Assembly (NCBI GenBank): GCA_017529425.1
Contig: JAFXNQ010000054.1
Location: 1 to 48,064, forward strand
Length of the DNA: 48,064 bases
Source: Bacteroidales bacterium
GTDB lineage: Bacteria; Bacteroidota; Bacteroidia; Bacteroidales; UBA932
Direction of reading: 5' to 3'
This document shows positions 37,338 through 48,064 of the stretch, one piece after another. The notes beneath the pieces were generated by a model. The model did no database searches and had not been told where the DNA came from. It saw only the letters and a program-made list of their open reading frames with translations. The number at the start of each line of letters is the position of its first letter. Position 1 is the stretch's first letter. The position numbers were made by a program, and so were the translations under genes.

Positions 37338-39425
37338 TTACCACTCGCAAACCAGATAACGTTCGTCTACATCGGTGAAGTACCATCCGGCGTTGTTGGC
37401 GCCCATGGAAGTAATCCAGCCTTCGTAGAGGGGATATGCGTCGCTGAAGTGCAGTTTGTTCCAGACGTGTCTGGTCAGTGTAGGGCACTTGAAGCCCCAA
37501 ACCATACCGTTGGTACCTGCGTAAGGGTTGTTGCTGCTGACAAGGTTACCGCTGCTGACTGCCTCAGACAGCTTGCTGTTGAAGGGAGATACAGATTCTT
37601 TATGTATCAGCACGGGGCTGTATCCTTTGAGTCCGATAGGAGTGAAATCGCGATTGATTATGTAGAAGTTCTGGGCAGTGGTGTTGATGACTGCATCAAT
37701 CATGTTCTGTTTAGCCATCTCGCGCTCTTCACTGCCGAGTCCTGCGCGCGACTTCATATTGAAGATAACGGTGTAGGTAATCAGGCCTCCAGCCACATTC
37801 ATGTAGCCGGGGATGCAGTTATAGAATTTCTGCTTGATTATGTTTTTGAAGCCGGGTGACGGTAATTCCATAGTCTCGAGCTCGGGGTCATACTGGCTCT
37901 TGTCCTGAGGTTTGTATCCGTAGGTGAGATTGAATACGGTAATATTGCTGAAATTGCCGTTGCGATAGGTATAAACTGCATTGTCTCCACTACCTGCGCG
38001 CTCTTCGTTGAGGGTGAAAATGTGAGCCATCTCAACAACGGGATTCTTGCTGTCGGAGGTATAGACAGCAGAGTTACGCTGTATCGTAGTTTCTGTAAAT
38101 GCAGGGAGCGTTCCGTGAGGGTTGTTGTAACTGTCAAGGGTGAAGTGCTCCTCAACGCTCTCTACATACTGCTGGTCAAAGTTCTCCATCATCACGCCCA
38201 CGCGTGAAGGTCTGTTGGGGTTGCCGCTGCCCACTGCACGTAGATGCAGGACAACTTTCACCTGCTCGCGGGTGCCGTCGGACTCCAGCATGGAGTCGGG
38301 CATAACCTTGGCTTCAAAGTCGTAGTCAACAACCACGTCGTCAAAGTCGGTGTCATATACGCCGCCCTTTGTAATTTCCGGCCAGCTATCCTCAAACATC
38401 ACTACGCCGCTGGAGTGGTAGAAGGTCTGGTCTTGACTGGAAGAGACATATTTGGCAGGGTCGGGGAGTGTTACATCGGCTGCGTTATGAGGGGCATAAT
38501 CAACGATGATTGTGCCGTATTGGTCAACGGTTACCGAACCACCGTTCCCGGTAGCGACTGTATTCTGGGAGTTGGTGTCTATTACGATTGAATTGGAATC
38601 GTTCTGGCTGGTGAGGTCGCCGTTAGGGACAAAATTGGGATTAGGATAGAGTTTGGTTTCACCGTTTTCCTCGCCGCCGCAACCGCACATGCAGCCCCAG
38701 GGCATAACATAGGGGCTGTTCTCGCATTCACCGCAGGGGCAACTGAGTTTTTCCCCCTTCACTACGTAATTTTCAATTTCATACGCTTCATCCAGGAAGT
38801 AAGCTGCTCCATTGGCGCTTCCGGAATAAGCAAACTTGTATCTCAAAGTATGATTGTGTTCTTTGTCATAGAAAACCACGTCTTTGGGATAAGTGGGAGT
38901 GCCTTGCAGGCCGGATTCTTCTGTATTCTGGTAAGCAAAAGCCCACTTTACCCTCACGTAACGGGTCTTTCCAAACTCACCACTCTCAATTTGATCTACG
39001 GGGAAATCCGTAAGGGTGTATATCTCTGTCTGATTTGCCTCGGCTTTTGTGGAAAGTTGCTGCCCAAGGGCTGCGGTCAAATAATATACATTGACCCTGG
39101 TAGCCTCCGGCGATGAAAGCAGGAGATTGACGGTACCAAAGGGCTCGACATCTTTCCCGCCGACCGGAGTGGCCACCTTAGGTTCTACTGATACAGGGAT
39201 AACAGTAGTGTGACCTTTGTCATTCTTGTACTCCACATACACGGTAGTGGTTGCGGCAGGTACGCTCATCTGGGCATATCCGTAATATCCGGCAACCGCC
39301 TCATCGTTGTCAAACGGGTCATAAACTTTGTCTGATTTTTCTTCAGGCTTGTTGAACTTTGAGCAAGATGCCAGAGTGGCAACTGCTGAAGTGAGAAACA
39401 AAAGGTAAACAAAATGTTTTTTCAT
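37338..39425 (-). CDS. LruC/DUF4842-domain lipoprotein with a cysteine cluster
   Basis: Predicted surface lipoprotein of 695 residues, lipobox Cys21 (ATLASC). The C-terminal part, from about 338, carries the LruC/DUF4842 signature GVVMFEDSWPEITKGG then DTDFDDVVVDYDF (usually WP..GDYDFNDLVVDY). Ahead of it, residues 229-249 contain six cysteines (CPCGEC and CMCGCGG) in an otherwise almost Cys-free protein. The N-terminal region (about 40-215) is beta-rich and unrecognised. The gene has a GAAGGAG Shine-Dalgarno-like sequence and its own likely promoter, 38 bp after the DUF1573 gene. Function unknown; LruC proteins are often surface exposed and near polysaccharide genes. Confidence 0.82.
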   Translation of the reverse strand: MKKHFVYLLFLTSAVATLASCSKFNKPEEKSDKVYDPFDNDEAVAGYYGYAQMSVPAATTTVYVEYKNDKGHTTVIPVSVEPKVATPVGGKDVEPFGTVNLLLSSPEATRVNVYYLTAALGQQLSTKAEANQTEIYTLTDFPVDQIESGEFGKTRYVRVKWAFAYQNTEESGLQGTPTYPKDVVFYDKEHNHTLRYKFAYSGSANGAAYFLDEAYEIENYVVKGEKLSCPCGECENSPYVMPWGCMCGCGGEENGETKLYPNPNFVPNGDLTSQNDSNSIVIDTNSQNTVATGNGGSVTVDQYGTIIVDYAPHNAADVTLPDPAKYVSSSQDQTFYHSSGVVMFEDSWPEITKGGVYDTDFDDVVVDYDFEAKVMPDSMLESDGTREQVKVVLHLRAVGSGNPNRPSRVGVMMENFDQQYVESVEEHFTLDSYNNPHGTLPAFTETTIQRNSAVYTSDSKNPVVEMAHIFTLNEERAGSGDNAVYTYRNGNFSNITVFNLTYGYKPQDKSQYDPELETMELPSPGFKNIIKQKFYNCIPGYMNVAGGLITYTVIFNMKSRAGLGSEEREMAKQNMIDAVINTTAQNFYIINRDFTPIGLKGYSPVLIHKESVSPFNSKLSEAVSSGNLVSSNNPYAGTNGMVWGFKCPTLTRHVWNKLHFSDAYPLYEGWITSMGANNAGWYFTDVDERYLVCEW

Positions 39426-39455: not shown

Positions 39456-39486
39456 CAAACGTATTACTTATCTACGTAATATCCAA
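39456..39486 (-). promoter_or_regulatory. Likely promoter of the LruC gene
   Basis: On the minus strand, TTGG (39486-39483) is followed after 19 bp by TACGTTTG (39463-39456), matching the Bacteroidota pattern apart from the first box. It lies mostly inside the end of the DUF1573 gene and would give a leader of about 25 nt containing the Shine-Dalgarno-like sequence. Confidence 0.5.
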
Positions 39487-39973
39487 GTCCAGTTTCAGCT
39501 CCGATACCGGAAACTAGGTCGCGGAGTTCCCGGGCCGACAGGCTGTTTTCGTACAATTCTTCGTAATCGTGATGGTAACTTGCATCAGGAACGACATTTA
39601 CGTCAAATCGCAGTTGAGCCATGCCGTCGGGTAAAATGTTGCCCCAAAAGCGGACCGAATGCTCAACTTTTCCTACATTTTTTTTGCTGTCGTACCTGAT
39701 GGTGACAAACATGAACTGTCCCGGAGGTATCAATGCTTTACCTTTGAAATCTGTTACTATACAGCCGCATGAGGGTTGGACATCCTGAATCAGCAGGGGC
39801 TTGTCGCCAGTATTTGTAAGCTTGCCGATTATGATGAGCTCCTGGCCGCGGAGAATGGGATAGTAATGACGTACCGGGTCTTTAATCTCGACTGTCGTGT
39901 ATTCCATTTTCTGCTTGCAAGATGTCAGGAGCGCACAAACAGCAAACAATATGAAGAAAATACGTTTTGTCAT
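39464..39973 (-). CDS. DUF1573-domain lipoprotein
   Basis: Predicted lipoprotein of 169 residues, lipobox Cys19 (ALLTSC), followed by one DUF1573 Ig-like domain (about 42-125) with the family motif QPSCGCIVTDF and IPPGQFMFVTIRYD. DUF1573 domains are ASPM/SPD-2/Hydin-like beta sandwiches and are common in Bacteroidota envelope proteins; no enzymatic role is known. The start codon overlaps the stop of the DUF4838 gene (ATGA), so the two are translationally coupled. It is the last of the overlapping genes in the exopolysaccharide-like operon. Confidence 0.88.
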   Translation of the reverse strand: MTKRIFFILFAVCALLTSCKQKMEYTTVEIKDPVRHYYPILRGQELIIIGKLTNTGDKPLLIQDVQPSCGCIVTDFKGKALIPPGQFMFVTIRYDSKKNVGKVEHSVRFWGNILPDGMAQLRFDVNVVPDASYHHDYEELYENSLSARELRDLVSGIGAETGLGYYVDK

Positions 39974-42186
39974 TTTATTATTATTTCATCTATAGCAAGG
40001 TCCCTGACATGTGTCTTGGACTGTGTTAGCCTAAGTTCAAAAGACGATGCATCAGGAATCTGGATGTGTGAATGGTATACAACCCTTTCGCCCTCTTCGT
40101 AGTAATCTAAAGAAGACTCACGACGCAGCGTCTTCACTAGTTTGCCATCAGCCCAAAGAGCGACTTCGGCGGGCGGCGCCATGTTGTGGCGCTCAAAATT
40201 CAGGAAACCAATTATGATTTCGCTGGCCCCGTCAAGACAATCTGCCGGAAGCTCTATACTCAGGTCTTTCTGGGGCATAAGTTCCCATCCCCAGTGATAA
40301 CTCTGGGAGATGCCAATTACGCCGTCGGTCAAGCGTTTCGTGGTTGTAACCCAAAACGCAGAATGTATCGTAAGTTCCCGTCCCAGAAGCAGATCTCCAT
40401 TCCAGGGTTGAGCTTGGAGCCAGGCGGCGCATTCGTTTTCATAGTCGGCAATATAGACGCCGGCTTCATTGATGCGGTCCATATGGTCCATCGATGCATG
40501 TTCATTGGCAGTAAGCACAAACAGACCGTCTTCGTCGGTTATGTTGGACAGGTCTTTTACTGCCCCCAGAAGGTCTTCTTTTACATGCCACTCGCCGTCA
40601 TCACCCTTATACAGATATCCTTTCTCGGGGTCAAGCCCGTTGTAGCGGGCAAGCTCCAGCATAGAGAACGATATGATTTGGCGTGTCTTGTTGTAAATTA
40701 CACTTTCACGGAAAGTCATCTCCTCAAGATTCATGTGGATGAATTTGTCGTAGAACTCCCTGTAAAGATCCTCGTTGAGGTAAGAGTTGATAGCATCCTC
40801 GATACCACCGTACATAGGCAGTGCCTTCCCACGTTCACGGGCCACTTCTTCCAACAACAGGTACATTTGGGAGCAATACTCTCCAATATGTGGCAAGACA
40901 TCCATGTAATAACTTTTTACCATAGTGGGGATGTCCAGGTCCGGATTCATCATAAGTTCTGCCAGGAAAAAAGTATATGCTTCTTGCGTAGTGGAGTAGA
41001 AATAGCCGCTGCCATTCAGGAAAAGACCCTTGACGCCCCGCTTGCGATATTCACGGAAGCGCTCCTGCATAGAATAAAGCACTGGGTAAGGGGTCAGGTA
41101 GTCATCGAAATTACATATGTAATCCCAGACATAAATAGTATTAGTCACTTTTTTCCAGGCTTCAAGGCTGCTGAAGAATTCCTGGGCTTGCGGTGAGTCA
41201 ACACTGCCTACCGCACGCGGGTAATCAATCGCAGAGAGGAATACGCCGACGTTAGACGGGAGTTTGTGGTCGGGAACCTCTTTGGTGGTAAGATAAGCCG
41301 GGATGAAAAAAGTATGCTTTGGGAAGCGGGTTGCGAGCTGTTCTATGAACCGTATTACGGCTGGTGTAGCATTATCCCTGGTGTTGCCGGCCGATTCGCA
41401 CTGGCGGCATTGACATACAACAGCATTGTCGTTAGGGCTGATGGTGAACCGGTTTGGATACTTGGTGCCGTCCCCGTATTGTTCAATGATATATTGGACA
41501 GTAAGGTCGTAGAGTTTATTGGAAGAGAAGCAGAACTGCTCAGGATGTGACAGGCCGCCGCTGCGGGCAAACAGGTCGGGACTCATGTTCTGGAATCCGT
41601 AGCTGTTGTCGCCATTGGAACCCAAAACCCTGGAGAGTTGATGGCCCCACAGGGCCCAGTCTACTTCAAGGTTGTTGAGACCAAGTAACAGAGTCATATC
41701 CATATTCTGGTTGCAGGGCATATATATGTCCCTGTATTCGAAAGGGAAGGTGATGGTTGTATCGCGCAGGGGGAACATATCCGGAGGCAAGTCATCTACC
41801 GTCATGTCACCATAAGTGTTTCCCTCGTGCTTTATGAATTGATAGAGCAGCCATGTCATTGTCCGCTCTGTCCTGGCAGACATCTTACATTTGCCATCCT
41901 CGTACTGTACTGAATAATCTCCGCCAAAATCGTCACCGATATGCAAAGTCACCTCCTTGTCGCAGGCAGAGGCATTGTTGGTCAATAAGCGAGCCTTGGT
42001 GCGACCCTGCATGTGTTGCCTCAGATAATCTGCCACTTTCGTTTCCTTGGCATTATCCGTGTCCTCGGCGTGGATATAGTAGGTAACTTTAGGTTCTTGT
42101 ACACTCTTTTGCCCTCCGCACCCAAACACTGTCAGCAGGGTGAGAAGAATAAGGATCTGGTTAGAAATAGATAACAAACTGGACAT
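39970..42186 (-). CDS. DUF4838-domain lipoprotein, hydrolase-like
   Basis: Predicted lipoprotein of 738 residues, lipobox Cys23 (LTVFGC). The centre matches DUF4838 as I know it: RFTISPNDNAVVCQCRQC at about 246-263, with Cys258, Cys260 and Cys263, in what looks like a barrel of the glycoside-hydrolase kind. The C-terminal part (about 590-738) looks like a beta-sandwich (LPADCLDGASEIIIGFLNF, SFELRLTQSK). No catalytic residues can be assigned with confidence. Its first 26 bp overlap the TPR-barrel gene, and its stop overlaps DUF1573. In this setting it may trim or modify the exported polysaccharide, as PgaB and AlgL do in other systems. That role is an inference. Confidence 0.82.
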   Translation of the reverse strand: MSSLLSISNQILILLTLLTVFGCGGQKSVQEPKVTYYIHAEDTDNAKETKVADYLRQHMQGRTKARLLTNNASACDKEVTLHIGDDFGGDYSVQYEDGKCKMSARTERTMTWLLYQFIKHEGNTYGDMTVDDLPPDMFPLRDTTITFPFEYRDIYMPCNQNMDMTLLLGLNNLEVDWALWGHQLSRVLGSNGDNSYGFQNMSPDLFARSGGLSHPEQFCFSSNKLYDLTVQYIIEQYGDGTKYPNRFTISPNDNAVVCQCRQCESAGNTRDNATPAVIRFIEQLATRFPKHTFFIPAYLTTKEVPDHKLPSNVGVFLSAIDYPRAVGSVDSPQAQEFFSSLEAWKKVTNTIYVWDYICNFDDYLTPYPVLYSMQERFREYRKRGVKGLFLNGSGYFYSTTQEAYTFFLAELMMNPDLDIPTMVKSYYMDVLPHIGEYCSQMYLLLEEVARERGKALPMYGGIEDAINSYLNEDLYREFYDKFIHMNLEEMTFRESVIYNKTRQIISFSMLELARYNGLDPEKGYLYKGDDGEWHVKEDLLGAVKDLSNITDEDGLFVLTANEHASMDHMDRINEAGVYIADYENECAAWLQAQPWNGDLLLGRELTIHSAFWVTTTKRLTDGVIGISQSYHWGWELMPQKDLSIELPADCLDGASEIIIGFLNFERHNMAPPAEVALWADGKLVKTLRRESSLDYYEEGERVVYHSHIQIPDASSFELRLTQSKTHVRDLAIDEIIIK

Positions 42187-44974
42187 TTCCCACTAACATA
42201 TTGTTGTAACTGAGTTCCTCGTTCTTTACGCCGTACAATGTGTGCCAACTGCCAGAGATATTGAGCGACAGGTTGTCGGTGAGCAGCCAGTTGGCTCCGA
42301 GGCCTACGAATGAGTTCAGGTGATTATATGAATAGGCGTTGTAATAAATATTCGAGAAATCCAGCTCAGGTGCCGATCCGGCCCCGGCTTGCGCCTCTAT
42401 GTAAGTGCGACCACCTTCATAGGGGAAGAAGCGGGTCCGCACCAGGCATAGGGCGTAAAGGTAATCCTGATATGTACCGGCTGACAACTTGCCGCTCAGA
42501 TAAAACTTGCCTAAAGATTTAGCCGGGCTGAATGTGGCTCCAATCATGTTGGCGCCATCGGGCATCTTACGATACAATCCGCCGAATTCCAGCTCTAATT
42601 CAGAAGCGCTGGTGTGTTTCATCGCAGCGTTTAGGGACAAAATAGGGAAGAACCTGTATCCAACTGCGACATCACCGTTGAATTCCCAGCTCTTTGACAC
42701 GGGGATGCTTGTAAACGCTTGCCATTGCAGGGCGCGACTGCCGGTTACAGGCTCCCCGTAGCCTTCAGAAAAGGCGTTGCGGCCTGAATAGTTGATGCGG
42801 GTGCCTAACAAGAACCCCTTTGGCGTACGGTGGCTATATCCAACGGTTGCTATGCCATTCAGAGTGGTGCTGGCGGTCAATTGGTAGAAATAGTAGCCGA
42901 ACTCCAGAGTATTGTTGTATGTACGGCTGCGCATAGAACGCATATGGTCCAGATATTCCTTCTGTTCCAAAAGGGACGGAGTATACTTGCTCTGATATAC
43001 ATAAGCAGAGTCCCACTGCTTGTTCTTTTCATATATAAGTCCCCTTGCATACTGGAGCTCTTTGTCAAGAGGCCGTACTGCAAGGGCAGAATCCAGCAGA
43101 GCGGCAGCACCGTCGTAGTCTTTGGCACCGATTAATTTTTCTGCCTGAAGCCGGGATGCCAGTGCGTAGGCGCCGACAAGTGATTCGTCACCCGGGTGTT
43201 CGTCCATAAGGGCCAGCAGCATCTCTCTAGCCTCGTCCTCTTTGCCCTCCTTCTCCAAAAGATGTGCTTTACGGATGCGGAAAGAGATGTCTTCCGGATA
43301 GTTCTCAACACCGGCTTCTATGTACGGGGCGGGGTCTTCTGCCGTCTGACATCCATATCTGAGCGCCCAATAATTGGCCGGGTTCAAACTTAACATGAAG
43401 TTGCACAACTTGGTCGCATAAGGGTTTGCGCCGGTCTCCTTGGCATCCTTTATCATAGGGATGGCGATTTCATCGACCATATACACAATCGACATCTTGG
43501 AGGTTGAGTCGGGAGCGTTCCAATATGCCCGGTAGAGCTCTTCCAAGGCCTCATCGCGGCGGCCCTGTTTTACAAGCAGGGATGCATAATCCCTCGAAAC
43601 CACTGTAGAAGACTCGTTTTTGAGCCTCTCCTTGAGCATCTGCTCTGCCTTGTCAAAATTACCCAATTCCCTGTAACATGTTGCCAGCCTGCGTGTCGCA
43701 GCTGTGACAAATTCGGGTTCAAGGCTGTTTGCGCGGACATATTCGAGAGTCTCTGCAGCCTGGTCGTACAACTCGTCGTTCATGGCTTCGGCTGCATCTT
43801 TGAGGCGGATGCGGGAGGCGGTCAGATTGATGTCATAAGAATCGGGGAACTCTTTTTCTGCACGCATGAGCACGTTCCTGGCATCTTCCGGATGCCCCAT
43901 CCGGGAACGAACTTCGTATTCCATCATACAGAGTCCGGGTGTGTTGCCGCTATGCTTGCGTTTTTCCGCTATGTACTCCAGTGCATCTTCATTGTATCCC
44001 CTTCTGTATGCTTCATTCACCAGGAAATTGAGGGCTTCTGAAGAGCGCTGGGTGGCGTATACCTTAGAATACAGGATATAAGGATCGGACTCCTTCTCGA
44101 ACCTTGCGTTTTCTTCAAGAATTTGTTTGCTCAGTGTCCTGAGTTCCGGTGAAGGATTCTCTGCAATCTGGGCGCGAACAAGCGCAGAAGCCGCCTTGTC
44201 CTGTCCGGATTCCATAAGCAGTCCGGCAGCCTTGCGTGTGAGATCCACATTGCCGGGATTGACATTGAGGGCGGCATTGAGGACATTCAGAGCTTCTTCC
44301 CTGCGGCCGAGCTGTATCAGTACATTTGCATATGCCAATTGGTAATCAGGGTCATTGGGATATATGCGCACCATATCCCGCAGGGCATCTTCTGCAGTAG
44401 TGAGGTCACCGTTCAGTCGTGCCTGGTTATAAGTTGTTTCCAGCACATCAAACCAGTCAGAAGATATCGAAGCATCGTTTGGATATATCTGACGCAGACG
44501 CTTTAGCAGCTCATTTGCCTCCGCAAAATTGCCCTGCTTCTTGTAAAGGTCGATTTTCCTGAGCCACAAACCCTTCCAGTAAGGGTTGATTTCAAGCAAC
44601 TCGTTCACATAACATATAGCGCTGGAATAGTTCCCGGACAGCTCCTCAACGTTAACCAGCAAGTTCTTTGCGTCAATGTGGTTGTAATTGATTTCGCAAC
44701 TCTTGGTCAGGTGGAACCGGGCGCGATCGTAATTCTTCACGTGGTACCAGTACCGGCCGGCCAGATAATGGAGGTTGGGGTCGTTCGGATAACGGTCAAG
44801 GCCTTCGTCCAACAGCTCCTTGCCTTTATCCCAGCGGTGCTGGGCGAACATGGAGGTAACCTGGTCATCATACTGACCGGGGGTAATTGCCTTTTTGAAC
44901 TGCCCGGCAGCCGGAACTGTTTCTGACAATAGCGACAGACATGCAGTGAGCAGGATTAAAAGACGTCGCATCAT
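42161..44974 (-). CDS. TPR protein fused to a YaiO-type outer-membrane beta-barrel
   Basis: A 937-residue envelope protein with a signal peptide (LLTACLSLLSETVPAAGQ). About residues 30-660 are tandem TPR-like helical repeats (GKELLDEGLDRYPNDPNLHY, AEDALRDMVRIYPNDPDY, EEALNVLNAALNVNPGNVDL). About 675-937 are a beta-barrel of the YaiO type (NNTLEFGYYFYQLTASTT, KGFLLGTRINYSGRNAF, NWLLTDNLSLNISGSWHTLY) ending in FVIYF, with the terminal aromatic residue typical of barrel proteins. The architecture is like PgaA and BcsC, the outer-membrane secretins of poly-GlcNAc and cellulose. It shares one base with the GT2 gene (TAATG). Export of the GT2 product is the likely role. Confidence 0.88.
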   Translation of the reverse strand: MMRRLLILLTACLSLLSETVPAAGQFKKAITPGQYDDQVTSMFAQHRWDKGKELLDEGLDRYPNDPNLHYLAGRYWYHVKNYDRARFHLTKSCEINYNHIDAKNLLVNVEELSGNYSSAICYVNELLEINPYWKGLWLRKIDLYKKQGNFAEANELLKRLRQIYPNDASISSDWFDVLETTYNQARLNGDLTTAEDALRDMVRIYPNDPDYQLAYANVLIQLGRREEALNVLNAALNVNPGNVDLTRKAAGLLMESGQDKAASALVRAQIAENPSPELRTLSKQILEENARFEKESDPYILYSKVYATQRSSEALNFLVNEAYRRGYNEDALEYIAEKRKHSGNTPGLCMMEYEVRSRMGHPEDARNVLMRAEKEFPDSYDINLTASRIRLKDAAEAMNDELYDQAAETLEYVRANSLEPEFVTAATRRLATCYRELGNFDKAEQMLKERLKNESSTVVSRDYASLLVKQGRRDEALEELYRAYWNAPDSTSKMSIVYMVDEIAIPMIKDAKETGANPYATKLCNFMLSLNPANYWALRYGCQTAEDPAPYIEAGVENYPEDISFRIRKAHLLEKEGKEDEAREMLLALMDEHPGDESLVGAYALASRLQAEKLIGAKDYDGAAALLDSALAVRPLDKELQYARGLIYEKNKQWDSAYVYQSKYTPSLLEQKEYLDHMRSMRSRTYNNTLEFGYYFYQLTASTTLNGIATVGYSHRTPKGFLLGTRINYSGRNAFSEGYGEPVTGSRALQWQAFTSIPVSKSWEFNGDVAVGYRFFPILSLNAAMKHTSASELELEFGGLYRKMPDGANMIGATFSPAKSLGKFYLSGKLSAGTYQDYLYALCLVRTRFFPYEGGRTYIEAQAGAGSAPELDFSNIYYNAYSYNHLNSFVGLGANWLLTDNLSLNISGSWHTLYGVKNEELSYNNMLVGNVQFVIYF

Positions 44975-46434
44975 TATTTCTTCTCGTTTTCTTGCTTTGT
45001 CTTCTCAGTGTCTTCCTGATTGACGCCACGACGGGTCATCGTACCCCAAATCATCTGGCGTCCTGCAATATGGCGCCAATAGCCGCACAGGGAGAAGAAG
45101 ACACTCAGAGGGTGATATATTATCGGTTCCAGCATCGCCGCAAAGAACAGAAGGAAATAGTCTCTGGTTTTCTTATATGGCGTGCCGGCATACATGTCAA
45201 ATGAGATTACCGTCATGGCCAGGAACAACGCGAATGAATAGATTGCCACGAAGGCTACCCAGATGGTGTTGTAGTTGACGGCGTTAATGAGGAACAGGTA
45301 AATGATGATAAAATATCCGGTTCCCTCTATGACAGGCGCCAATAACTCAAACAACAAGATATATGGGAGCGTTAAACCGCCAAACTGGCGATATGTCGGG
45401 TTCCACAGCATATCGGAGTGAATTGTGAAAAACTGCAGCAGTCCGCGGCCCCAACGGGTACGTTGTCGTGACAGTACCTGCCGGGAAGAAGGACCCTCGG
45501 TCCAGCAGCAAGTCTCCGGAATTTGCGAAACGAGATATTTTTCCCCGCTTTCGCACATGTAGCGCACCATGCGGGCAATCAAATCCATATCCTCGGCAAA
45601 TGAATCGCCGTCATAGCCGCCGGCCTTAATGGCAATCTCGGTGTCAAACATACCGAATCCACCCGACACGTTCTGCATTGCATTCAGCACAGATAGAGCC
45701 GATTTACCCACGAGGAACGACCGGGCGTACTCCAATTCCTGAAATAGAGGCAGAAGGGTGCGGGGTGCACGGGTCTCCACAACCTGGCCGTCCTTGACTT
45801 TACATCCGTTGGACATGCGCATTGTAGCAGACACCGCAATTACCCTTCGCCTGGCTTGCATCACGGGCCAGATGACACGGTACAAGGCATATTTGTCCAG
45901 GATGCAGTCCACGTCGGTACAAACAAAATAATTGTTGGTTACGACATTCACGCCGGCGTTGGAGGCGTCGGCCTTGGTGCCGCCGTTCTCTTTGTCAACA
46001 ACCTTGAGTTTCTTGTATAGCGGGTTGTCGGATTTGGTCAGGTACATGGCCCGGAAAGGCTTGGTCTTGATTTTTTCCACGTAGGCATACGGCACTTTCA
46101 CAAGATCAAACTTTTCGATGAGCAGCTCCAGAGTCCGGTCCGTGGATCCGTCATTTACGATAATCACCTCAAAATCGGGATAGTCCTGGCTGAGAAGGGA
46201 GAGTACATTGGTGATGATTGTCTTCTCTTCGTTATATGCGGGGGCTACGATAGAGATACCGGGAGAATATGGAGAGCGGCGCAGAAGCCGGACCGTATGG
46301 ACCTCATTGTGGTATGTCTTGTGAATGCGATGCTTGTGCCATGCCAGCAATACCATGACAAGGTAGCTGAGTACCAGCGCCCCGGAATAAAAGAGGACGA
46401 AATAGTTGAAAAAGTCTATAATGGCGTCACGCAT
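44974..46434 (-). CDS. GT2-family processive polysaccharide synthase
   Basis: Inner-membrane glycosyltransferase of 486 residues, of the PgaC/hyaluronan-synthase/cellulose-synthase kind. One N-terminal membrane helix (about 12-32) precedes the GT-A domain with NDGSTD (94-99), DVD (174-176), a probable catalytic EDMD (281-284) and QRTRW (324-328), the QxxRW motif that marks processive synthases. Further helices follow at about 345-370, 378-410 and 425-445. There is no PilZ domain. Its start overlaps the HEAT gene by 8 bp and its stop overlaps the TPR-barrel start. Sugar specificity cannot be read from the sequence. Confidence 0.93.
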   Translation of the reverse strand: MRDAIIDFFNYFVLFYSGALVLSYLVMVLLAWHKHRIHKTYHNEVHTVRLLRRSPYSPGISIVAPAYNEEKTIITNVLSLLSQDYPDFEVIIVNDGSTDRTLELLIEKFDLVKVPYAYVEKIKTKPFRAMYLTKSDNPLYKKLKVVDKENGGTKADASNAGVNVVTNNYFVCTDVDCILDKYALYRVIWPVMQARRRVIAVSATMRMSNGCKVKDGQVVETRAPRTLLPLFQELEYARSFLVGKSALSVLNAMQNVSGGFGMFDTEIAIKAGGYDGDSFAEDMDLIARMVRYMCESGEKYLVSQIPETCCWTEGPSSRQVLSRQRTRWGRGLLQFFTIHSDMLWNPTYRQFGGLTLPYILLFELLAPVIEGTGYFIIIYLFLINAVNYNTIWVAFVAIYSFALFLAMTVISFDMYAGTPYKKTRDYFLLFFAAMLEPIIYHPLSVFFSLCGYWRHIAGRQMIWGTMTRRGVNQEDTEKTKQENEKK

Positions 46435-47623
46435 ACTTCCGGCTGTCTATATATTCACATTCGATGTGCGAGAACACAATCTTGTCATACGCGGGAGCTT
46501 CACTCCGCAGCGTATTGTAGCCCTCGCGGCCAATCGTTCCATAGTTGTACAATACGTTCAGAAGCCGCACCTTGGTCACGGTGTCGGTTGCCTTGCGGTA
46601 GTCATCCATAAGGAACCGGACTACCTCCTGCTTACCGGAGTTGATGGACCCCAGTGCCTCCGCAAGGGCTATGCGCTCGTTCGCGCCGGCATACACATAC
46701 CGATCAATGAGGTGCTGCTCAGCAGGGGCATACTTCAACTCTCCAAGCGTGCGTATGATTGCAATGGCAACCTCTTCCTTGCGGCGTTTCTTTAGATACG
46801 ACAACAATTCTTCACAGTCACCGTCATTATGGAAGAGACGAATCTCGTTGATGGCAAACAGTCGGAAACTGTCACTTGCCTCTACCGTAATCATCCACCG
46901 TACAAAGTTGGGGAGAGATAGCCCAAGCGCTTTCCTGTATGTCAGCACCCAATGCAGTTTGGTAGACATCTCTTCAGTAAATTCTGCCGCAGCGTCTTCG
47001 GTGAAAATCTTGAAAGGCATGGAAACACCATAACGTGCTGCATGCAAACGGGATGAAAGCCTTAGCTCGGCATTTTTGGAATACAGATACCGGGAAGCGG
47101 CAGCCTCCTTGAGGTCGCAACTGATGTCTGAGACGTCCTTGAGTGCGTCAAGACGGCGTTTCATCTTCGAAGAACGGAGTTCCATCTCAAAGTATGCCGG
47201 CATCTTGAATGACTGGAGAACAAAACGCCAGTTGTCGGTATTCATCTCATGTCCGGTTCGTGAATCCACAAACAATTCGCGGAATACAGGAACCATAGCC
47301 TCCCAACGGGCCCTCTTGATCCGGACATTCTTGGGTAACGAGAGACGGGAGGAGACCTCAGCAAGAGAGAGCGTTTCCGGCATTATCGCGATAGACTTGA
47401 TCAGGTCGTAATACTTGTTGCGGAAATTGGCAGTACGGACCTCAGCACGATGCTTTTTGCGGGCAACACCGTGGTTCAGGACGAACAACCCGATGGTTAG
47501 TAAAATGAAGAAAGTAAAAAATCCCGCGCAGAAACGTATCACTGGAGGATAGCCTGCCAGCCAATAATAGCCAAGTAGCAAATAGTACTTCCAGAAACTG
47601 TAATAATCGAGATAATACTCCAT
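46427..47623 (-). CDS. Membrane-anchored HEAT-repeat protein
   Basis: A 398-residue protein with an aromatic-rich N-terminus (YYLDYYSFWKYYLLLGYYW), one clear membrane helix (about 29-50) and a cytoplasmic helical part. HEAT-like repeats are clearest at about 255-375 (FAINEIRLFHNDGDCEELLS, EVAIAIIRTLGELKYAPAEQ, RIALAEALGSINSGKQEVVR, KVRLLNVLYNYGTIGREGYN). No enzymatic motif is visible. It is the first gene of the operon, directly behind a consensus promoter, and overlaps the synthase gene. Likely role: scaffold or regulator of the GT2 synthase at the inner membrane. Confidence 0.85.
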   Translation of the reverse strand: MEYYLDYYSFWKYYLLLGYYWLAGYPPVIRFCAGFFTFFILLTIGLFVLNHGVARKKHRAEVRTANFRNKYYDLIKSIAIMPETLSLAEVSSRLSLPKNVRIKRARWEAMVPVFRELFVDSRTGHEMNTDNWRFVLQSFKMPAYFEMELRSSKMKRRLDALKDVSDISCDLKEAAASRYLYSKNAELRLSSRLHAARYGVSMPFKIFTEDAAAEFTEEMSTKLHWVLTYRKALGLSLPNFVRWMITVEASDSFRLFAINEIRLFHNDGDCEELLSYLKKRRKEEVAIAIIRTLGELKYAPAEQHLIDRYVYAGANERIALAEALGSINSGKQEVVRFLMDDYRKATDTVTKVRLLNVLYNYGTIGREGYNTLRSEAPAYDKIVFSHIECEYIDSRKYA

Positions 47624-47657
47624 AGAGACCCCCTCACGAGCTTTCAGAATTGCGCCG

Positions 47658-47688
47658 CAAAAGTAGCAAAAAGTCTCTAATTTACAAA
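47658..47688 (-). promoter_or_regulatory. Consensus promoter of the HEAT-GT2-TPR operon
   Basis: On the minus strand, TTTG (47688-47685) is separated by exactly 19 bp from TACTTTTG (47665-47658), a full match to the Bacteroidota TTTG-N19-TAnnTTTG promoter. The start site would be near 47651, giving a leader of about 28 nt. Apart from this, 47624-47718 shows nothing recognisable. Confidence 0.8.
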
Positions 47689-47720
47689 TAATTATAACTC
47701 AAGCGGGCACTGTCGGCCTC

Positions 47721-47892
47721 CCAGGGGGCTGTGGGGTCGCTTGTGCGAGTCTCTGGGTTACCCCATAAAGCCGAAAAGCAGCCACGAAGGCTGCTTTTCA
47801 ACTTTGAGCGGAAAACGAGACTCGAGCCCACGGCTGCGCCGCGGGCGTCCTCGCGCCTATAATGACCCCCCGGCAGCTAACGCTGCCTGCCC
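47721..47892. repeat. 172-bp tandem repeat, copy 1
   Basis: The unit runs from CCAGGGGGCT to the GC-rich end before the next CCAGGGGGCT. It contains GAAAAGCAGCC-ACGAA-GGCTGCTTTTC (47773-47799, 11-bp stem), an outer pair CGAGTCTC (47746-47753) and GAGACTCG (47817-47824), and further hairpins GCCCACGGC-TGC-GCCGCGGGC and GGCAGC-TAAC-GCTGCC. A 72-codon plus-strand frame crosses the junction of the two copies but cannot be real, because the unit length is not a multiple of three. Confidence 0.85.
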
Positions 47893-48064
47893 CCCAGGGG
47901 GCTTGGGGTCGCTCGTGCGAGTCTCTGGGTTACCCCATAAAGCCGAAAAGCAGCCATGAAGGCTGCTTTTCAACTTTGAGCGGAAAACGAGACTCGAGCC
48001 CACGGCTGCGCCGCGGGCGTCCTCGCGCCTATAATGACCCCCCGGCAGCTAACGCTGCCTGCCC
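47893..48064. repeat. 172-bp tandem repeat, copy 2, at the window edge
   Basis: Nearly identical to copy 1. The differences I see are a few bases at the start (CTGTGGGGTCGCTTG against CTTGGGGTCGCTCG) and a C-to-T change in the main hairpin loop (ACGAA to ATGAA). The hairpin GAAAAGCAGCC/GGCTGCTTTTC is at 47945-47971. The array may continue past the window. Confidence 0.85.

Follow-up and report, generated by a model that had tools for sequence, protein, structure and literature searches.

What does an operon make in which a HEAT-repeat membrane protein stands directly before a glycosyltransferase of family 2 (GT2)? This question is raised by contig JAFXNQ010000054.1 of a gut-type Bacteroidales bacterium (GCA_017529425.1), whose 48,064 nucleotides, the whole stretch analysed, are called here the window. 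Five genes on the minus strand occupy positions 47623 to 39464, and the coordinates of their open reading frames (ORFs) confirm the overlaps of 8, 1, 26 and 4 bp given in an earlier note on this DNA. In our reading the operon probably encodes a synthase-dependent exopolysaccharide system that is independent of cyclic di-GMP (c-di-GMP), with the HEAT protein as partner of the synthase and probable signal input. The promoter match and the five genes are the following:

47658..47688, minus strand: promoter match TTTG-N19-TACTTTTG, 34 bp before the ATG of the HEAT gene
46427..47623, minus strand: HEAT protein of 398 amino acids (aa), one N-terminal membrane span, C-terminal HEAT repeats
44974..46434, minus strand: processive-type GT2 of 486 aa, with DxD, ED and QxxRW motifs, N- and C-terminal membrane spans
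42161..44974, minus strand: TPR-barrel protein of 937 aa, hydrophobic N terminus, TPR superhelix, predicted C-terminal barrel
39970..42186, minus strand: DUF4838 protein of 738 aa, probable lipoprotein with predicted GH20/GH84-like domains
39464..39973, minus strand: DUF1573 protein of 169 aa, probable lipoprotein (LLTSC read by eye)

In gene order, Pfam recognizes HEAT_2 (1.2e-07), Glycos_transf_2 (2e-21), TPR_19 (2.4e-44), DUF4838 (8.3e-38) and DUF1573 (3.5e-14). The consensus promoter announced in the note does lie right before the first gene. It is the sole match in the window to the motif TTTG-N19-TANNTTTG, which we take to be of the Bacteroidota type; since 0.57 matches are expected by chance, only its position is informative.

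The available text of PMC7112194 lists four components of synthase-dependent machines, i.e., an inner-membrane polysaccharide synthase, a c-di-GMP regulatory domain or co-polymerase, a TPR domain coupled to an outer-membrane pore, and a periplasmic modifying enzyme; according to the same text, the Gram-negative machines typically have a c-di-GMP-binding part. The GT2 appears to be the first component. It carries DxD at residues 174/176, ED at 281-282 and QxxRW at 324-328 (QRTRW), and Q324, R327, W328, D174, D176, E281 and D282 are invariant in 12 aligned GT2s, so that, with its membrane spans, it agrees with the inner-membrane processive enzyme of the note. For the second component, neither a PilZ domain in the GT2, whose absence had already been remarked, nor a PgaD-, BcsB- or Alg44-type protein in the operon is matched by Pfam or NCBIfam, and the HEAT protein stands in that place. 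To judge from their predicted folds, the TPR-barrel protein would provide the third, and the DUF4838 protein may provide the fourth.

To learn how far the gene set is kept, we have searched a genome collection with an alignment of the 12 GT2s and scored the neighbours with profiles grown from the window proteins, the E-values of these profile searches referring to small sets of 3875 and 751 ORFs. The 80 loci considered have the highest GT2 scores among 571; they were picked solely on GT2 similarity, are biased toward near relatives and are mutually non-independent. Genes were called direct neighbours when mechanically called ORFs overlapped or were separated by at most 250 nt (300 nt for a receiver gene at the operon end). 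The HEAT gene is directly upstream of the GT2 gene in 75 of 75 testable loci (those of the 80 with at least 1200 nt upstream), and the TPR/barrel gene directly downstream in 75 of the 78 with 1500 nt of room. DUF4838 is next in order in 63/74 loci (4200 nt), and DUF1573 comes right after it in 36 of the 58 loci that have DUF4838 and 600 nt left. The genes thus stay together among relatives, with the complete five-gene order in 36/80 loci, where gaps of 60 nt or less are found in 31, 35, 35 and 34 of the 36 at the four junctions. HEAT-GT2 is a wider system, of which the five-gene form is one version and in which DUF4838 and DUF1573 are optional. Titles of the carrier records include Bacteroides, Alistipes, Flavobacterium, Polaribacter, Pedobacter, Sphingobacterium and Chitinophaga, among others, and a tandem GT2 pair occurs in 15/80 loci, mostly of Chitinophaga and its kin.

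The GT2 is also found, in a patchy manner, in wider samples. At 1e-90, 45 of the 296 genomes sampled from the window's phylum have a GT2 match, and at 1e-30 so do 19 of 149 from its order, the window's own genome being counted in both. The order-level search gave 20 other GT2 places, 13 with an adjoining HEAT gene, two at contig ends and five of the sister group described below. The note had put the HEAT protein in the place of the usual c-di-GMP or small-subunit partner; the constant neighbourhood with the GT2 upholds the placement, and from it we infer the partner role.

In a tree of 58 GT2s, the enzymes of HEAT-bearing loci, 42 rows in all, cluster in a single group whose support (94/90) is slightly short of the starred level; Pseudomonadota, Deinococcota, Bacillota and haloarchaea fall inside it beside Bacteroidota. 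Within the 42, L039 is truncated upstream by the end of its contig, and the tandem GT2 pairs of L091, L098 and L101 contribute two rows each; another GT2 of L098 (L098_3328), located away from the operon, falls among the references and is omitted from the 42. Together with five sister rows (L040-L044; the upstream side of L042 is nearly cut by the contig end), these 42 split at 100/100 from a reference set of ten: PgaC, YaiP and BcsA of E. coli, IcaA and six more. A firm grouping with lipid-modifying enzymes had been named in the note as a refutation; the GT2 forms its own group with polysaccharide synthases as nearest relatives, in a tree without lipid-modifying GT2s, and this answers the point in part. 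The sister operons of L040-L043, without HEAT, contain two more conserved genes, one encoding about 1000 aa and the other about 600 aa; the product of the latter shows in L043 a weak likeness to polysaccharide deacetylases (0.0065, under the cut-off). In Flavobacterium limi (L118, 9001-12783), Pfam shows the GT2 fused to a sulfatase/LTA-synthase-like domain in an ORF that also matches the TPR profile, and nine long frames (1135-1273 aa) from eight genomes (G374, G193, G322, G382, G184, G267, G436, G174) are perhaps the same fusion.

These results bear on the possibility that the operon is a diverged PGA (PNAG) system. PgaABCD, which serves poly-beta-1,6-GlcNAc in E. coli, likewise has an inner-membrane GT2, one protein with TPR and outer-membrane barrel, and a periplasmic enzyme; here, the synthase would be PgaC-like, the exporter PgaA-like, and DUF4838 would replace PgaB. 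The best NCBIfam model for the GT2 is indeed PgaC/IcaA (4.4e-33), the TPR region matches PgaA weakly (1.9e-12), and the predicted fold of DUF4838 resembles hexosaminidases. However, the GT2 scores 114.8 bits against a cut-off of 422.3 and belongs to a separate group, split with its sisters from PgaC and IcaA as described above, the operon has a HEAT partner and no match to PgaD or to a CE4 deacetylase, and its barrel is YaiO-related with 14 predicted strands. Membership in the PGA family was therefore rejected, and we regard descent as a diverged form as unlikely. Cellulose synthesis was also discarded: BcsABCZ shares with the operon a GT2 synthase, a TPR-barrel exporter and, if DUF4838 acts as one, a cognate hydrolase, but no PilZ or BcsB is matched here and the GT2 is very distant from BcsA, both in the tree and by profile (6.4e-08 in 751 ORFs). 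The yaiS-yaiP-yaiX-yaiO genes of E. coli combine a GT2 with a YaiO barrel, and the window GT2 profile finds YaiP (1.7e-17 in 751 ORFs); they lack a HEAT gene, YaiO (257 aa) has no TPR part of the window size, and a deacetylase gene and a broken acyltransferase gene occupy the place of DUF4838. To our knowledge, these genes have not been characterised.

The HEAT-GT2 pair extends beyond Bacteroidota. We have inspected ten plasmid records of Mesorhizobium, Erythrobacter, Devosia, Legionella adelaidensis, Deinococcus, Planococcus, Paenibacillus and three haloarchaea, and the ORF just upstream of the GT2 matches Pfam HEAT_2 above the cut-off in 10/10. The window-derived HEAT profile finds seven of these ten below 0.01, leaving out Mesorhizobium, Halosolutus and Deinococcus. 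YaiO or TPR genes are annotated near the pair in the four Pseudomonadota examined and in Deinococcus, and the TPR and barrel profiles have no match in the stretches of the three haloarchaea, Planococcus and Paenibacillus (0/5, even at E 10). This absence in five of five monoderm or archaeal loci indicates that the HEAT-GT2 pair is the core, which suffices where there is no outer membrane, and that the TPR-barrel is the outer-membrane exit. The DUF4838 profile gave no match in the non-Bacteroidota loci; for Mesorhizobium, Deinococcus, Planococcus and the haloarchaea, whose same-group pairs are known from annotation only, DUF1573 was not matched either.

The HEAT protein has its membrane span at about residues 24-53 and its repeats at 271-350, and HEAT_2 is recognized in 53 of 57 aligned homologues, that of the window counted. 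The repeats are probably cytoplasmic, as the charge around the span agrees with this in 70/88 homologues. Two of the four long HEAT proteins scanned (L030 7734-9719 and L032 8972-10954) contain a SPOR domain before a single internal span and the HEAT part after it, an arrangement that would leave SPOR outside and HEAT inside; this SPOR domain hints at peptidoglycan binding on the periplasmic side.

Of the 65 loci in the receiver table, 32 lack DUF1573 and 33 have it; a receiver-domain gene borders the operon in 26 of the former and in 1 of the latter (Fisher 2e-11, kinship ignored). Receivers were taken as ORFs of less than 170 aa in one BLAST cluster, one of them confirmed by Pfam; 20 of the 26 lie right before HEAT and six only at the operon end. 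Receiver genes are likewise found near the pairs of Mesorhizobium, Devosia and Erythrobacter, accompanied by Hpt genes in the first two, and in all three haloarchaea one precedes the pair, immediately in two of them and with a small gene in between in the other. The topology and the adjoining receivers together suggest that HEAT is positioned for contact with the synthase as well as with a receiver in the cytoplasm. It is conceivable, and we put it forward tentatively, that an ancient HEAT-GT2 synthase common to bacteria and archaea was switched by phosphorylated receivers via HEAT rather than by c-di-GMP, that diderms added the TPR-YaiO exporter, and that a large Bacteroidota branch swapped the receiver for the DUF1573 lipoprotein.

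The exporter proposed in the note, an outer-membrane TPR-barrel fusion, corresponds to one protein whose TPR superhelix reaches about residue 683 and is followed by a predicted 14-stranded barrel (688-936). The note had counted a barrel too small for a pore as a refutation. The predicted barrel aligns with 14-stranded pores such as OmpG and CymA, suggesting that it is large enough. PgaA and BcsC are not among the 50 matches listed for the barrel, which is uninformative on the fold, and the whole-model Foldseek list, made up almost entirely of eukaryotic repeat proteins, is uninformative for the barrel. The YaiO type assigned to it holds in an indirect manner: the window barrel by itself matches no NCBIfam family, including YaiO (TIGR04390/PF19413), and kinship comes from a profile grown from it, which finds E. 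coli YaiO (8.6e-09 in 751 ORFs), and from homologues beside HEAT-GT2 in L023, L024, L104 and L134, which match TIGR04390.

The DUF4838 protein is a probable lipoprotein, on the basis of its hydrophobic N terminus and a lipobox cysteine read by eye, and its model shows an N-terminal alpha/beta domain and a catalytic barrel as in GH20/GH84 hexosaminidases, in line with the lipoprotein of hydrolase-like fold in the note. Its invariant residues are D253, D355, E574 and C258/C260/C263. The catalytic pair is D-E in GH20 and D-D in GH84. D253, invariant in 46/46, aligns with the D of the DE pair of 8qk1_A in a non-significant match (E 0.094), and the next residue varies. A strict lipobox pattern, which would miss the window's own protein, is present in 23/62 DUF4838 homologues; the acidic surface-export signal occurs in 0 of these 23 and in 2/33 DUF1573 homologues, a weak hint of a periplasmic location. 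In full-text literature, the name DUF4838 was found only in work on another subject.

Putting these parts together, the single-pass HEAT protein would be the constant partner of the GT2, lying against it in the cytoplasm. In many relatives, a stand-alone receiver encoded in the operon would act on HEAT and so switch the pair. The chain would be led through the periplasm by the TPR superhelix and released by the 14-stranded barrel at the C terminus, and the DUF4838 lipoprotein may act as cognate glycoside hydrolase, a role held elsewhere by BcsZ or by the hydrolase domain of PgaB. Where the operon has DUF1573 and no receiver, control would take another route. Thus, of the exopolysaccharide interpretation in the note, the conserved parts, the synthase and the predicted TPR pore hold, and a secreted product is what we infer from them.

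The polymer may contain HexNAc, although we are less than confident of it. PgaC/IcaA is the nearest NCBIfam model of the GT2, DUF4838 is hexosaminidase-like, and a GlmU-like nucleotidyltransferase gene and glmS follow HEAT-GT2 in Halosolutus. The sulfatase/LTA-synthase-like domain fused to the Flavobacterium GT2 argues against a single sugar answer and might be a modifying enzyme.

Several observations weigh against the exopolysaccharide reading or parts of it. Four sister GT2s (L040, L041, L043 and L044; 4/4 with room upstream) have no HEAT gene by profile, and a TPR gene follows the GT2 in three of these four loci, so HEAT is not required by every near relative. The operon is patchy: none of another 24 genomes in the window's genus has a GT2 match (1e-50), completeness being below 90% in 20 of these. 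The charge-based HEAT topology does not fit in 18/88 homologues. The barrel is predicted with 14 strands versus 16-18 in known synthase-dependent exporters (PMC9601211, available text). Beside D253 there is no counterpart of the GH20 catalytic glutamate in that marginal alignment, and DUF4838 may therefore be inactive or of other specificity. Finally, a nucleotide-sugar dehydrogenase and epimerases in the Legionella adelaidensis cluster point to another sugar there.

Some of these features would also suit a GT2 that glycosylates a lipid or a surface protein, with the TPR-barrel as an assembly or secretion factor and not a polysaccharide pore. The lower strand number fits this, and so does the sulfatase/LTA-synthase-like domain fused to the GT2 or close by (L118, L121, L023), as expected of lipid-linked glycopolymers; however, cellulose too has an annotated modifying phosphoethanolamine transferase, BcsG. 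We consider this explanation improbable in view of the QxxRW of processive synthases with C-terminal membrane spans, the glycoside-hydrolase-like partner, and the TPR/barrel pairing, present in the diderms examined and not in monoderms and archaea. That the genes serve to degrade or take up foreign glycans, with the GT2 there by chance, is highly improbable: DUF4838 is hydrolase-like, and in Bacteroides finegoldii the opposite strand carries, three genes ahead of HEAT, a gene for a chondroitinase-family lyase, but there is no SusC/SusD among the operon genes, DUF4838 is not directly next in 11/74 loci (in 10 of these 11, none lies within the fetched stretch), and its profile stays within Bacteroidota loci.

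Returning to the synthase-dependent exopolysaccharide system, no description of the operon was found in full-text literature, with most subscription journals and all bioRxiv preprints outside coverage, in agreement with the note, which knew no described system with the same parts. HEAT, YaiO and Bacteroidetes do not occur in the available main text of PMC7112194, and the HEAT gene of B. thetaiotaomicron in the available text of PMC10434189 belongs to a different set, beside DUF4876 and a TonB receptor. The HEAT helper is foreign to the well-studied polymer machines, yet it lies beside the same enzyme in many bacteria and some archaea. If the reading is true, a HEAT-partnered, receiver-linked synthase would be a second way to switch polymer synthesis, DUF4838 and YaiO-type barrels would gain, as far as we know, their first function, and Bacteroidota a candidate matrix polymer.

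Downstream of the operon, the window contains one further gene of interest:

37338..39425, minus strand: LruC/DUF4842 protein of 695 aa, 38 bp downstream of DUF1573

This gene is a loosely linked accessory, possibly cotranscribed with the operon. A homologue is found near the operon in 5/105 examined loci (L022, L047, L048, L052, L061), upstream or downstream and on either strand, and in L022 and L052 it has in its vicinity a gene of 1025-1026 aa, annotated in L022 as a chondroitinase-family lyase.

Regarding mobility, the GC of the operon (0.48-0.51) is not distinct from that of the window (0.48-0.58), and composition was discarded as a sign of transfer. Plasmid-borne spread was also rejected, since 'plasmid 4' of B. 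finegoldii has dapB, lepB and a tRNA-dihydrouridine synthase gene near the operon and looks chromosomal. Operons of the Bacteroidota type on contigs titled Beijerinckiaceae (L090) and Gastranaerophilales (L069) are likely binning errors. On viral contigs, 2 of 23 pattern matches encode a relative. Just upstream of the operon, a 172-bp unit in 2.0 copies (97% matches) occupies 47716-48064, up to the contig end; it may be an interspersed repeat at which the assembly broke off.

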